Shown one piece after another: positions 27,090 to 31,752 of a stretch of DNA of 64,000 bases. The notes beneath the pieces are model-generated. The model searched no databases, had not been told where the DNA came from, and was given only the letters and a program-made list of their open reading frames with translations. The stretch comes from an uncultured Bermanella sp. (GTDB lineage: Bacteria > Pseudomonadota > Gammaproteobacteria > Pseudomonadales > Oceanobacteraceae): the NCBI GenBank assembly GCA_913058575.1, contig CAJXRF010000005.1:52103-116102 (forward strand), read 5' to 3'. A program made the translations under genes and the position numbers. Positions within the stretch are counted from its first letter, which is position 1. Each line of letters opens with the position of its first letter.

Positions 27090-27297
27090 AATGCACCAAG
27101 ACTAAGTTAGCTATTTTATCCTGTGTGGCATTAATAGTGTAGTTTTGTCTGGCATGAGGATTGGTTGCTACTTGCACAATTACTTAGTACGTAGGTTCTG
27201 AGTTGTCTTGTGAAACGCACAGATAAGTGGAAATGTTCTCACTAGGGGGGATTGCTAGCCCATTAAAGCTTGGCGGGAAAGGGCAATAGATGTAACA

Positions 27298-28254
27298 ATG
27301 CGTAACCGCGTGTATAGCGGAAAAAATAAAAATAACAAAGTTCATGGCAAAAAAATGTTGGTTTTACTGTTAGCATCATTAATTGGTTATAATTTAATCA
27401 CAGAATTTGTAGAAATTGAGCCTCAACCCAAGGGTGTGGTGTATTTCAATACAGGGTTTGGTGATGGTGCATTGACGCACTTTGAAAATATCGAGCCATT
27501 AACAGAATACAAATACAATAATGTTGTTCGTCAAGCCTATGATTATAGTTGCGGTTCTGCAGCGCTTACCACCTTGCTCGATTTTTACCTAGGAAGAAAC
27601 TTCCAAGAGCGTCAAGTAATGGAAGGGCTCTTACAGTTTGGTGATACTGAAAAGATAGTGGCTCGACGAGGTTTTTCATTGCTAGATATGAAGAGATTGG
27701 TAACCGCATTGGGTCACCCATCTGGCGGATTTAGGGCAGCCGAAGAAGATTTAATAAAATTAGATCACCCAGCCATTGCGCCCATAGAGTACGCAGGCTT
27801 CAAGCATTTTGTTGTGGTTCGCGCGGTAAAAGATAGCCATGTTTATGTGGCAGATCCAGCTCTTGGTAATATAAGTTTTACTCTATCTCGCTTTATGGAA
27901 ATTTGGGATAGAAATGTGCTCTTCATTGTATTTCCGAATGGTCATAAACCGGTAGGAGGATTGGAGGTTAGAGATGAAGACTTAAGGGTGATTGATGAAA
28001 GGACTTTTACTCAAACGGCTTATCGTGACTTTAAAGATGTGTTTCCAGTGGATCACATGAATCTTCCTGCAAGTTATTATAATTCAATTGCTAAAAATAA
28101 AAATAATGCTTATTGGGATGAGGGCGAAGACCCTGCTGACCCAGATGACGATGTACTAATTACAGAGGGTGATGCTGCGTATGACCCTAACTTGGCGAAT
28201 GTTGTTAACACGCCAACTGTTGTAACCAAACAGATTAGATACAGAAGAAAATAA
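27298..28254 (+). CDS. C39 family cysteine peptidase, membrane-anchored
   Basis: A 318-residue protein. A basic N-terminus (MRNRVYSGKNKNNKVHGKK) is followed by a single membrane segment or uncleaved signal (MLVLLLASLIGYNLI). The C39 domain has the oxyanion Gln and nucleophile Cys in RQAYDYSCGSAALTTLL (about residues 78-94), and the later His and Asp in KHFVVVRAVKDSHVYVADPALG, so it should be active. C39 peptidases usually cut double-glycine leaders, but here there is no ABC transporter; free-standing C39 proteins such as FapD act in envelope fibre systems. The last 60 residues are acidic and proline-rich. First gene of a four-gene operon with gaps of 19, 14 and 0 bp. I do not know its substrate. 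Confidence 0.85.
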   Translation: MRNRVYSGKNKNNKVHGKKMLVLLLASLIGYNLITEFVEIEPQPKGVVYFNTGFGDGALTHFENIEPLTEYKYNNVVRQAYDYSCGSAALTTLLDFYLGRNFQERQVMEGLLQFGDTEKIVARRGFSLLDMKRLVTALGHPSGGFRAAEEDLIKLDHPAIAPIEYAGFKHFVVVRAVKDSHVYVADPALGNISFTLSRFMEIWDRNVLFIVFPNGHKPVGGLEVRDEDLRVIDERTFTQTAYRDFKDVFPVDHMNLPASYYNSIAKNKNNAYWDEGEDPADPDDDVLITEGDAAYDPNLANVVNTPTVVTKQIRYRRK

Positions 28255-28273
28255 TAATAAAAGGATTTGCTAC

Positions 28274-29284
28274 ATGCGCTTGTTTTCATTTTCCACCATT
28301 TTTTTATGCTTGTATGGCGCGAATGTGGCTGCAGATGTCTCTGATGCTCGAGAAGCGCTAACAAAAAGTGATAATGATGCCAGTCAGGAAAAAAGTCTTG
28401 AGGAAGTGTTTGAGGCCACTGAAAACAATTACTCGTTAATGAAGAAAGGGCAAACCTCTCTAAACTATAGTCTTAGTTATAGCTATATGGCGGATCAGCG
28501 GATTGAGCTAGAAGTAGTTAATAGTACTATTCGTGCATTTGATGTAAATGCTTCTGCAACCCATAATTTAACAAATAATTTTTCATTTGATTTTGGGTAT
28601 TTAGATAACTTAACACTTGGTTTATCTGTGCCATTGGCGAGCAAGTATGATACGGCTGAGTCAAATAGTAATGCAGGGCTAGGAGACGTTTCCATAAATG
28701 CCAGATGGCAGCCGTACGCTTATGTCCCTGGGGAATTAAGCAGAACAGTTACCGGATCCTTTAAAACAAAAACAGGCGACAGTCCATTTCGAACAATCTC
28801 GGATAAGCGATTACCTACAGGTAGTGGTTATTATACTATTTCTGGAGGCATGTCCGTTAATAAAGTGGTTGATCCTGTAATGCTTTTTGGATCTGGAAGT
28901 GTTAGTTATGGCATTCCAGAAACTGGGATAAATCAGGTGAACGGTTCACTGGTATTAAGTGAGGTTCGTCCCGGTGTGTCCACAGCATTTTCTGGTGGAT
29001 TCGCTTATTCCTTATCTTATGATGTGTCGCTTACAATGTCCTTCCAGGGTTCATATACCGATAAAGCTAAATATATTTTTCGAACAGGAGAAGAAGTTGA
29101 GACATCTTCAGTGATGTCAGGTGTGCTCAATTTTAGTTTAGGTGTGAGGATGTCACCTAAAACTATTACCAATGTTGGGGTGGGTTTTGGTATGACGGAA
29201 GACTCGCCAGATATATTATTGTCTTTATCTATGCCAATTAATATGAACGGTTTAAAAGCCAAATTTTTACCAGCTTCTTCATAG
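28274..29284 (+). CDS. Outer-membrane beta-barrel protein with short N-terminal helical region
   Basis: A 336-residue exported protein. After a signal peptide (MRLFSFSTIFLCLYGANVAA) comes a charged, helix-prone stretch of about 40 residues (SDAREALTKSDNDASQEKSLEEVFEATENNY), then alternating amphipathic beta strands to the end, as in transporter-like barrels (Phenol_MetA_deg type). FapF, the outer-membrane channel of the Pseudomonas Fap amyloid system, also has an N-terminal helical region before a barrel and pairs with a C39 protein, so a similar role is plausible. That analogy is inferred from layout, not sequence similarity that I can measure. Confidence 0.75.
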   Translation: MRLFSFSTIFLCLYGANVAADVSDAREALTKSDNDASQEKSLEEVFEATENNYSLMKKGQTSLNYSLSYSYMADQRIELEVVNSTIRAFDVNASATHNLTNNFSFDFGYLDNLTLGLSVPLASKYDTAESNSNAGLGDVSINARWQPYAYVPGELSRTVTGSFKTKTGDSPFRTISDKRLPTGSGYYTISGGMSVNKVVDPVMLFGSGSVSYGIPETGINQVNGSLVLSEVRPGVSTAFSGGFAYSLSYDVSLTMSFQGSYTDKAKYIFRTGEEVETSSVMSGVLNFSLGVRMSPKTITNVGVGFGMTEDSPDILLSLSMPINMNGLKAKFLPASS

Positions 29285-29298
29285 CGAGTAATACAAAG

Positions 29299-30915
29299 AT
29301 GAAGAAGTTAATAATTTATACTATTGGTTTGTTATTTAGTTCTGAGTTGTATGCACAAATGGCTCAGTCACTCCTGATTGACCCTAAGGCATTATCTTTA
29401 GGGAATGCAGTTACGGCTGACCCCCCTGGTTTGGCTTCAATACACTACAATCCAGCAGGCCTTACCAAGCTAGATGGGCGCCAATTAAGCGTTACGCTAT
29501 TCAACGTGATATTGAAGGTTGGAACTGAATATAGTCTTCCCGAGGGCTATGCTGAGGATGAAGCCGGTCAGGAGGAGGATCCTGGTTTGCTAGATTTTCG
29601 TGATGATCCTGTATTGGATGAAGAAGGTGAGGCGCACCCAGGGTTATATATTCCCAGTATCGGTCCCATACCTTTGCATTTGCCCGTAGCAACACTGCCG
29701 GCAGGTGGTTTTTCTATCACACCTCCAGGCTCCAAATTTACCTTTGCAACGCTGTCTTATATACCGATGGCAGGGACACTTATCAAAGAAGATGATGACC
29801 CAGGTCGGTATCAGGGGAAGCAAGTGGCCATGCAACGTCTTACCTATTTATCCCCTTCCTTTGGCTATAAAGTGAGTGATGAACTCTCCGTTGGTTTTGG
29901 AGTGTTATTGTCGCATCAGGCCTTTGCGATATCTCAAGATGTTAGGGCGGTAAATATATTGATGGCAGCAGGAGAAATGCTTCAGGAGGCTTTTGGTTGT
30001 GAAGAAGGCGGTGGGGGTAGCGATCCACTAGTGCCGTTTATTTCTATGTGTGGAGGCTTAATTGGCCCCTATAGGGATATCGGGAACTTAACCATGCAGT
30101 TTGAAAAAAGTATGTCATTTACCTATCACATGGGAGTGTTATGGGAGCCTAGTGATTGGTTTGCATGGGGGGCTAGTTATCAAAGTGAAGCGAAAGAGGA
30201 TATGACCGGAGAGTTTGAATTTGATTATTCTCGAGATTTCTCTGGTTTTTTTAGTGGATTTAGAGGGTCTGTTTTCGGGGCGATAATAGGTGCAATGTTT
30301 CAACTACCAACCGGTGTTAGTAAAGAAACAGGTTATGTGAGTACGGAGTTTACCTATCCTCAGCATTTTCAAACGGGCTTTAAATTTCGTTTTATGGATA
30401 AATTTCAATTTAATGTGGATGCTGGTTGGACTGACTATGATGAGTGGGAAAGCTTTCAGTTTCAATTCGACAGGCAATTGGATTTCTTGAATGCAGCAAA
30501 AATATTAGCGCCGGGCGAAATTACAAGTACTACTTTAGAGCAAAAATTAGAATATAAAAGCCATTGGAACTTTGGTTTTGGATTTGAATACCAATTAAGT
30601 TCACGATTAAAGGCCCGATTGGGCTTTGAGCCTAGATCTTCTTCTATTCCTGATGGGCAGCGCAATGTTATGGCGCCATTTGGGTCTGCGAATATATATG
30701 CCATGGGTTTTGGCTATCAATGGGACCTTGATACGGTGGTGGATATATCGCTTTCCTATATGAAAAGTGAAGAAGAAATACTAGCATCAGACCCAAGTGC
30801 GAGCCTGAATACGGATTGCCTAACCTGTGTGGCATCAAATCCTTATCCAGGGCTTGATATAAAAACCTCTCTTTCAGTTGCGGCTGCAGGTATTTCCTTC
30901 AGAACGAAATTTTAA
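29299..30915 (+). CDS. FadL/OMPP1-family outer-membrane protein
   Basis: A 538-residue barrel. The signal peptide (MKKLIIYTIGLLFSSELYAQ) is followed by ALSLGNAVTADPPGLASIHYNPAGLTKLDG, the N-terminal hatch region with the NPAG motif of the FadL/TodX family. An acidic insertion (AEDEAGQEEDPGLLDF) and two Cys pairs (FGCEEG ... SMCGG; TDCLTC) are unusual. It ends in SFRTKF, with the terminal Phe expected for barrel insertion. FadL proteins admit hydrophobic substrates such as long-chain fatty acids. It sits third in the C39 operon. Confidence 0.88.
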   Translation: MKKLIIYTIGLLFSSELYAQMAQSLLIDPKALSLGNAVTADPPGLASIHYNPAGLTKLDGRQLSVTLFNVILKVGTEYSLPEGYAEDEAGQEEDPGLLDFRDDPVLDEEGEAHPGLYIPSIGPIPLHLPVATLPAGGFSITPPGSKFTFATLSYIPMAGTLIKEDDDPGRYQGKQVAMQRLTYLSPSFGYKVSDELSVGFGVLLSHQAFAISQDVRAVNILMAAGEMLQEAFGCEEGGGGSDPLVPFISMCGGLIGPYRDIGNLTMQFEKSMSFTYHMGVLWEPSDWFAWGASYQSEAKEDMTGEFEFDYSRDFSGFFSGFRGSVFGAIIGAMFQLPTGVSKETGYVSTEFTYPQHFQTGFKFRFMDKFQFNVDAGWTDYDEWESFQFQFDRQLDFLNAAKILAPGEITSTTLEQKLEYKSHWNFGFGFEYQLSSRLKARLGFEPRSSSIPDGQRNVMAPFGSANIYAMGFGYQWDLDTVVDISLSYMKSEEEILASDPSASLNTDCLTCVASNPYPGLDIKTSLSVAAAGISFRTKF

Positions 30916-31752
30916 ATGAAACATATTGTCTTAATTTTTAGTCTTTTTATTCTAGGTTGCTCAACTTCTGGCAATCAGGATGGGGGCTTTTACACTTGGG
31001 TAGATGCCAGTGGAAACGTTCATACGGAGCGCCGTTTAGAAAAAAAAGAGCCTGTTGTAGTGGAAGATGAAGTCCCAAAAAAGGTATTAAAAGGTGAGTA
31101 CCAGCAACCCAAAGTAATGGCTTCTGTAACCCCTAATGAAGACCATTACTTTAACCCTGATGACTTTCAATCTTCTGAGGAAATAGACAAGCAGTTAGCC
31201 CCTAAGCGTCTTTATAGTTGGCAGGATCAAGGGGCGCAAATCACCCAAGAGCTAAGTTCCAGTGAGGGGGCAAGGGATAGTCAGGAGGGGCTAGTAGAAA
31301 TAAGCTTGCTTCAAGATAGGTTGAATTACGAGTACCTAGCCCAAGGCAAGATTTTTTACTTTAATGAAGTGAAGGGTAAGGAATTAATATTGGAGAGTAT
31401 TTACCTATTCAATAGACAGTTAGGTAAGGATTATATCCTCATTGAATTGCCTAGAGAGGGTGTGGCTGAAAGGGCATTGTTTAAGAGTTTTATTAAAAAA
31501 AGTAAGATTGCTTTACCTAATTTAGTTTTTCTATCCGACCGATTCGATGCAATGTCACTTCCAGCCCTGCCATTTTCTCACCATGTTGAGGAAACATGGA
31601 GCGCCCATGGTTTTATGCAGGGTGTTGTTGAAATACCATCTAGGGCAAGCTATATATTAGTTCTTTCCAATCCTAGCTCTGGAGTTTTAGAATTGGGAGG
31701 AAAGAATGTAAAAGCGGTTGATCTGGGCAGTATACTGCTGGATAGCTACTGA
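30916..31752 (+). CDS. MalM-like lipoprotein with DUF4124-like N-terminus
   Basis: A 278-residue lipoprotein with lipobox ILGC (lipidated Cys at about 15). Directly after it comes FYTWVDASGNVHTE, a DUF4124-like motif, repeated weakly as RLYSWQDQGAQIT. The C-terminal half (ESIYLFNRQLGKDYILIELP ... RASYILVLSNPSSG) resembles the MalM family of periplasmic proteins, though only loosely. Its ATG follows the FadL-family stop with no gap. It could serve as an outer-membrane accessory for the two barrels. Function is not known. Confidence 0.7.
   Translation: MKHIVLIFSLFILGCSTSGNQDGGFYTWVDASGNVHTERRLEKKEPVVVEDEVPKKVLKGEYQQPKVMASVTPNEDHYFNPDDFQSSEEIDKQLAPKRLYSWQDQGAQITQELSSSEGARDSQEGLVEISLLQDRLNYEYLAQGKIFYFNEVKGKELILESIYLFNRQLGKDYILIELPREGVAERALFKSFIKKSKIALPNLVFLSDRFDAMSLPALPFSHHVEETWSAHGFMQGVVEIPSRASYILVLSNPSSGVLELGGKNVKAVDLGSILLDSY

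Follow-up and report, generated by a model that had tools for sequence, protein, structure and literature searches.

The filBCDE operon of an uncultured Bermanella: a probable leader-trimming and export machine for FilA-type subunits encoded elsewhere in the genome

Cells of Acinetobacter sp. Tol 5 grown on triacylglycerol are reported to bear long, curved fibres, the Fil fimbriae, whose subunit, FilA, was identified by Edman degradation (PMC3498257; Tol 5 Fil fimbriae with the FilA subunit also appear in PMC11784438). In A. baumannii, the fil operon is reported to comprise six genes, with filF as the sixth (PMC4751259), and both FilC and FilF are raised in a biofilm (PMC8792954). No assembly mechanism for these fimbriae is described in the literature that we found. 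FilF has, for its part, been tested as a vaccine antigen. Here we analyse a stretch of 64,000 nucleotides from an uncultured Bermanella sp. (contig CAJXRF010000005.1, positions 52,103 to 116,102 of the forward strand; hereafter the window), which carries a real, conserved Fil-type operon, filBCDE, in a split layout. In our reading, filBCDE is probably a split Fil pilus system, that is, a leader-trimming and export machine for FilA subunits.

Acinetobacter Fil (filABCDEF of A. baumannii and Tol 5) is the closest relative of filBCDE: homologues of FilB to FilE follow each other in the same order, and a FilA-family subunit is present in the genome. The Bermanella system differs in having filA on another contig, no filF beside the operon and dispersed subunits; moreover, the window sequences score far under the cut-offs of the Acinetobacter-only models. 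With the Fap system of Pseudomonas (FapD, FapF, FapE) it shares a periplasmic C39 peptidase beside a 12-strand-type barrel with N-terminal helices, and the FapE-like neighbours of Fap loci bear a leader similar to that of Fil. However, no FapB/FapC amyloid subunit lies beside the window operon, and the equivalog models place neither protein within Fap (121 of 330 bits for FapD, 50 of 700 bits for FapF). A further likeness is that to the C39 ABC transporters of bacteriocin export, which have the same C39 fold and a leader with hydrophobic residues at P4, P7, P12 and P15, a pattern typical of the double-glycine leaders of C39 substrates. Unlike them, the Fil system lacks an ATPase, its peptidase is proposed to act after Sec in the periplasm, and its leader ends in GQ instead of GG and lies behind a signal peptide.

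The four gene products

As the preliminary description of this DNA had it, four genes for exported proteins are packed with gaps of 19, 14 and 0 bp, all on the + strand, which the open reading frame (ORF) coordinates confirm. The operon and its features are as follows:

27090-27297, no strand assigned: intergenic region, the place of filA (DUF6160) in related genera, empty of filA here
27298-28254, + strand: filB, 318 aa, periplasmic C39 cysteine peptidase, membrane-anchored or with a signal peptide
27532-27534, + strand: codon of FilB Gln79, the C39 oxyanion-hole Gln, invariant
27550-27552, + strand: codon of FilB Cys85, catalytic Cys, invariant
27805-27807, + strand: codon of FilB His170, catalytic His, invariant
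27853-27855, + strand: codon of FilB Asp186, catalytic Asp, invariant
28274-29284, + strand: filC, 336 aa, FapF-like outer-membrane barrel, proposed export channel
28337-28432, + strand: N-terminal periplasmic helices of FilC (residues 22-53), predicted with low confidence in a strongly conserved segment
29299-30915, + strand: filD, 538 aa, barrel of the FadL/OmpP1 family, accessory
30916-31752, + strand: filE, 278 aa, lipoprotein with a DUF4124-like motif and a MalM-like C-terminal region, accessory

The NCBIfam models matching the four products are named FilB, FilC, FilD and FilE, in the order of the Acinetobacter operon, and score 260, 347, 478 and 20.6 bits, respectively; all four values lie under the curated cut-offs, these models being of the "exception" type with very high cut-offs set for Acinetobacter. 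The suggestion in the preliminary description that the Acinetobacter Fil proteins may be a related set was thus right.

FilB matches Pfam Peptidase_C39 (7e-17) and, at 121 bits, the NCBIfam FapD model. The set Gln79-Cys85-His170-Asp186 is invariant in 19/19 FilB proteins from a wide range of families, and no ABC transporter or ABC ATPase, fused or adjoining, was found for filBCDE among the ORFs and their Pfam and NCBIfam matches, so that the apparently active, transporter-free C39 peptidase of the preliminary description stands. FilC has no Pfam match and reaches 50 bits against the FapF model. Its AlphaFold model (mean pLDDT 67) has N-terminal helices at residues 22-30 and 36-53 followed by a beta-barrel, and the best 18 Foldseek matches of this model in the PDB are all FapF chains (best E 1e-15), which agrees with the FapF-like barrel suspected before and suggests that FilC would be the export channel. 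The FadL-type assignment of FilD was likewise correct (Pfam Toluene_X 6.7e-60, 203 bits versus a cut-off of 29.7).

FilE carries a lipobox, LGC, seen in the sequence at residues 13-15. Its earlier description as a MalM/DUF4124-like lipoprotein holds for the family, where 21 of 22 homologues match DUF4124, 17/22 match MalM (best 5e-20) and 3/22 match Pfam FilE_C; it does not extend in full to the window protein, a diverged copy with only a weak DUF4124 match. A role of FilE in linking the subunits with the barrel would be a guess. Both FilD and FilE are regarded as accessory because the most distant loci (family f165) show only filB and filC together, with neither filD nor filE beside them, while leaders of the type described below persist. 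The pair filB and filC thus looks like the core of the system.

FilA subunits, their leader and a solved filament

The gene upstream of filB in relatives encodes a DUF6160 protein (PF19657) that matches NCBIfam pilus_FilA. The sets of genomes with FilC and with DUF6160 are identical in 32/56 relatives (Fisher 2e-16), in 41/295 genomes of the order (Fisher 3e-51) and in 6/276 genomes of the class, one of these with a sub-cutoff DUF6160 only (Fisher 2e-12), values to be read with caution, as genomes that are related cannot count as independent samples and the three sets overlap slightly. At the order level, FilC was counted from at least 221 bits and DUF6160 over its own cut-off, the next matches of the FilC profile being FapF-like and at most 100 bits. 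More telling than the Fisher values is the pattern within each of the families f1, f20 and f21, in which FilC and DUF6160 are either found together or both lacking. A natural control comes from genomes whose only such barrel is FapF-like: DUF6160 never occurs in them, a further difference between Fil and the Fap system of Pseudomonas. Genome G088 alone seems to depart from the co-occurrence, with a single sub-cutoff DUF6160 match and no FilC.

FilA-type proteins consist of a signal peptide, a propeptide of ~16 residues ending in Gly-Gln, and then A/S/D/N-G-V/I. The propeptide of the main subunit in this genome is EMVAIDDSMLSDMTGQ. The hydrophobic positions of the FilA leader are P4, P7, P12 and P15, and acidic residues (Asp or Glu) stand between them. 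In the AlphaFold model of the FilA of this genome, the propeptide contains a short helix, and GQA is directly followed by the first strand.

The same type of leader is found on 21 unrelated small proteins of three genomes (G438, G537 and G325). The search pattern imposed P12, P7 and P2; P15 is nevertheless Leu/Met/Ile and P4 is Val/Ile/Thr in 21/21, neither position having been imposed, and at P1, which the pattern left open to seven residues, 19 proteins have Gln and the other 2 have Glu. From P2' on, conservation across these proteins drops to ~1 bit. The simplest reading of the alignment is that of a sorting signal ending at GQ. Comparison of three small f165 cargos with known bacteriocin leaders (NCBIfam) gave no match. 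G438 (L187-L199) and G537 (L207-L218), from one distant family, each carry 15-17 DUF6160-type leaders, mostly on short exported proteins with unrelated mature parts, a candidate secretome so far unexplored.

Some related proteins have no propeptide and start with AGVxIEL directly behind a signal-peptide-like segment (L161:4085-5596, L039:3165-7790, L085:4523-7384), starts that fit the same mature N-terminus as the one after GQ. The L039 and L085 copies of these exported proteins lie between filD and filE; the one from L039 contains choice-of-anchor U domains, and its tail comes close to the GlyGly-CTERM threshold.

Searched against the PDB, a profile built from 33 FilA sequences gave one significant match, entry 9xfv (E=3.4e-11), an environmental filament deposited as "bacteria pilus (like)" with 25 chains of 173 residues, whose subunit is therefore a FilA homologue. 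Residues 1-7 of its chain are DGVSIAG, the second of which is paired with the P2' Gly in the alignment; therefore, residue 1 corresponds to the residue directly after GQ. The junction GQ|DG is found in FilA proteins of other families, and the C-terminus of the 9xfv chain aligns with that of the FilA family. To judge from these alignments, a FilA relative forms a pilus-like filament without the propeptide. A phmmer search of the PDB with the single Bermanella FilA gave no match, and no paper on 9xfv was found. A Foldseek search with the FilA model, which returned only 9xfv (E 3.6e-3) with a poor overlay, was set aside, the sequence profile being decisive instead. Because of the unfailing co-occurrence above cut-off and the match to a pilus-like filament, DUF6160/FilA proteins, encoded at other loci of the genome, would be the substrates of the filBCDE machine. 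The preliminary description had pictured a dedicated FapD/FapF-like export and processing machine with its substrate encoded elsewhere, a picture that the analysis supports.

In the Bermanella genome, a FilA-like protein is encoded on contig C34 (L158:7353-8390; DUF6160 96 bits, pilus_FilA 43.5 bits; C-terminus IYGH). Further candidate substrates form a cluster on C110 (391, 201, 820, 329 and 328 aa), with one more on C17 (310 aa) and one on C13 (503 aa, its tail resembling a GlyGly-CTERM signal), so that they are dispersed over the genome. On C34, the gene before filA encodes a small exported protein that matches no Pfam family (L158:6659-7270). Its homologues (L121, L122, L124, L135, L143-L145, L163, L167, L039, L085) stand ahead of filA in other Bermanella-type genomes and in two f20 loci, and immediately ahead of filB in two more lineages (L039, L085). 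Found beside either filA or filB, this small gene therefore bridges the filA locus here and the filB loci elsewhere, and its product is possibly a chaperone or partner of the system.

Locus layout and neighbouring genes

The four genes occur in the same order in other Bermanella-type genomes, Thalassolituus, Oleispira, Bacterioplanes, Marinobacter and Hahella. In the window, they are flanked on the 5' side by a divergent pabB-like gene and on the 3' side by a convergent kinase/pyrophosphorylase gene (ppsR type) and a PEP synthase gene, and this position between pabB and ppsR/ppsA is kept in the examined loci of Bermanella, Thalassolituus, Oleispira and Bacterioplanes, truncated contigs apart. 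In Marinobacter, Tamilnaduibacter and Hahella the set stands in other gene neighbourhoods. Conservation of the linkage, the absence of which would have refuted the reading of the preliminary description, is thus widespread, and filBCDE is not a chance cluster.

What varies is the place of the subunit gene. A DUF6160 gene lies at most 4 kb upstream of filC in 18/20 genomes that encode FilC and belong to the family but not to the genus, and in 0/9 Bermanella-type genomes; in the window, no filA was found upstream of filB. Since filA is also missing from the upstream position of the operon in Marinobacter and Hahella, we treat the unlinked filA as a layout variant and not as a defining feature of the Fil system.

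Between filE and ppsR there is no ORF, and hence no filF (a genome-wide search for FilF was not made). The ORF after filE in relatives was considered as filF and rejected, as it encodes an alpha/beta hydrolase in Thalassolituus and others. This hydrolase gene, 3' of filE in Thalassolituus-type and two Bermanella-type genomes (L025:6300-7139, L029:12974-13852, L030:13098-13946), is missing in the window. Scans for promoters and terminators gave no more than shuffled sequences did. In other families, additional genes accompany filA: in f21, a conserved 907-aa protein is encoded upstream of it (L219:2244-4967, L220:8856-11579, L222:3337-6060, L224:9328-12051) and resembles, judged from its sequence start only, a MalT/LuxR-type regulator, and in f43 a ~530-aa protein is encoded between filA and filB (L221:5638-7227, L223:15131-16726).

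A proposed route, its rivals and the link to Fap

The gene set, the co-occurrence with DUF6160, the anatomy of the leader and the homology of FilA to a solved leaderless filament are direct observations, from which we infer an order of steps. FilA-type subunits made from distant loci would be exported by Sec and lose their signal peptide to signal peptidase, the propeptide of ~16 residues staying on FilA. In the periplasm, FilB would bind this leader and, as the presumed processing enzyme, cut after GQ, giving a mature N-terminus A/S/D-G-V/I. The FilC barrel, whose N-terminal helices may receive the subunit in a manner like that proposed for FapF, would then pass the processed subunit across the outer membrane, and the subunit would polymerise outside the cell into a pilus-like fibre.

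Several points weigh against this route, besides the relatedness of the sampled genomes mentioned above. Leader cleavage by FilB is itself something we infer, and C39 enzymes do not usually cleave after a Gln (P1). FilA does not adjoin filB in this genome, several of its own candidate substrates fall under the DUF6160 cut-off and were identified by their leader, and FilE resembles Acinetobacter FilE only weakly (NCBIfam 20.6 bits). Finally, the deposited start of 9xfv may mark the visible density rather than processing.

The rival that deserves most consideration is a general leader-directed secretion system, for which a pilus would be only one job and whose main cargo in Bermanella may be the 820-aa and 310-391-aa proteins. 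We hold this to be a substantial possibility, given the about seven leader candidates of very different lengths in the genome itself and the 15-17 leader matches on short unrelated proteins in both G438 and G537, but a FilA-like subunit that ends in the conserved YGH is encoded in Bermanella too, and it is filA that accompanies the operon from genome to genome. Uptake of hydrophobic compounds, with FilD as the key protein and the other genes supporting lipid or alkane import, had been entertained in the preliminary description and now appears very unlikely as the main role. In its favour, FilD does belong to the FadL family, many of the hosts are members of genera known as oil degraders, and Fil fibres were observed on triacylglycerol-grown cells (PMC3498257); yet filD and filE are missing beside filB-filC in f165 although leaders persist, and the proteins that co-occur with the machine are secreted subunits matching a pilus-like filament, not lipid enzymes. 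A Fap-type amyloid, in which FilA would form cross-beta fibres exported as in Fap, draws on the homology of FilB and FilC to FapD and FapF. We consider it highly improbable, since the Fap models score far under cut-off for both proteins, FilA is related to a pilus-like filament whose subunits are folded and rich in beta structure, and no FapB/FapC-like repeat gene lies beside the operon, in agreement with the earlier remark that an amyloid subunit is absent there (the whole genome was not searched for Fap repeats).

The proposed FilB cleavage also bears on the Fap system, in which FapD, a periplasmic C39 peptidase, has been stated to have an unclear target and FapE is the only protein with complete N-terminal processing (PMC5557850). 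In most of the Fap-type loci that we fetched, the Fil leader pattern recurs in an exported protein adjoining FapD, with GK, GR or GG at its end; examples are LKDQELAQLRGK, LSDDTLDTLRGG and VSDPVLAQMRGK. These FapE-like proteins (L227-L251, e.g., L227:8149-9009 and L250:5877-6710) have leaders of the form LxDxELxxLRG[GRK], a candidate cleavage site for FapD. When trained only on Fil leaders, a position matrix placed a gene near FapD first in ~14/25 Fap-type loci of ~30 ORFs each, several top picks lying elsewhere and many scores being near the 99% level of shuffles. Fil-type leaders in FapE are, in consequence, a strong lead and not proof. With about even chances, Fil and Fap may follow a general route built on a periplasmic C39 peptidase and a FapF-like barrel, with Sec delivery, sorting by a propeptide of double-glycine type behind the signal peptide, a C39 cut and export through the barrel. 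Such a route would serve the pilus subunit FilA and the FapE of Fap amyloid systems, as well as, in some lineages, dozens of small proteins unrelated to each other.

Fil fimbriae were already known in Acinetobacter, whereas the cleavage logic, the dispersed substrates and the split layout described here appear to be new. If filBCDE is indeed the export machine of FilA, substrates and a likely cut site can be proposed for a class of enzymes for which both were previously unknown. The assembly of Fil and the target of FapD would both become directly testable, with a substrate family, a cut site at the level of residues, a solved filament and a sorting signal at hand; likewise, DUF6160 would gain a likely function, and the environmental filament 9xfv a likely family.

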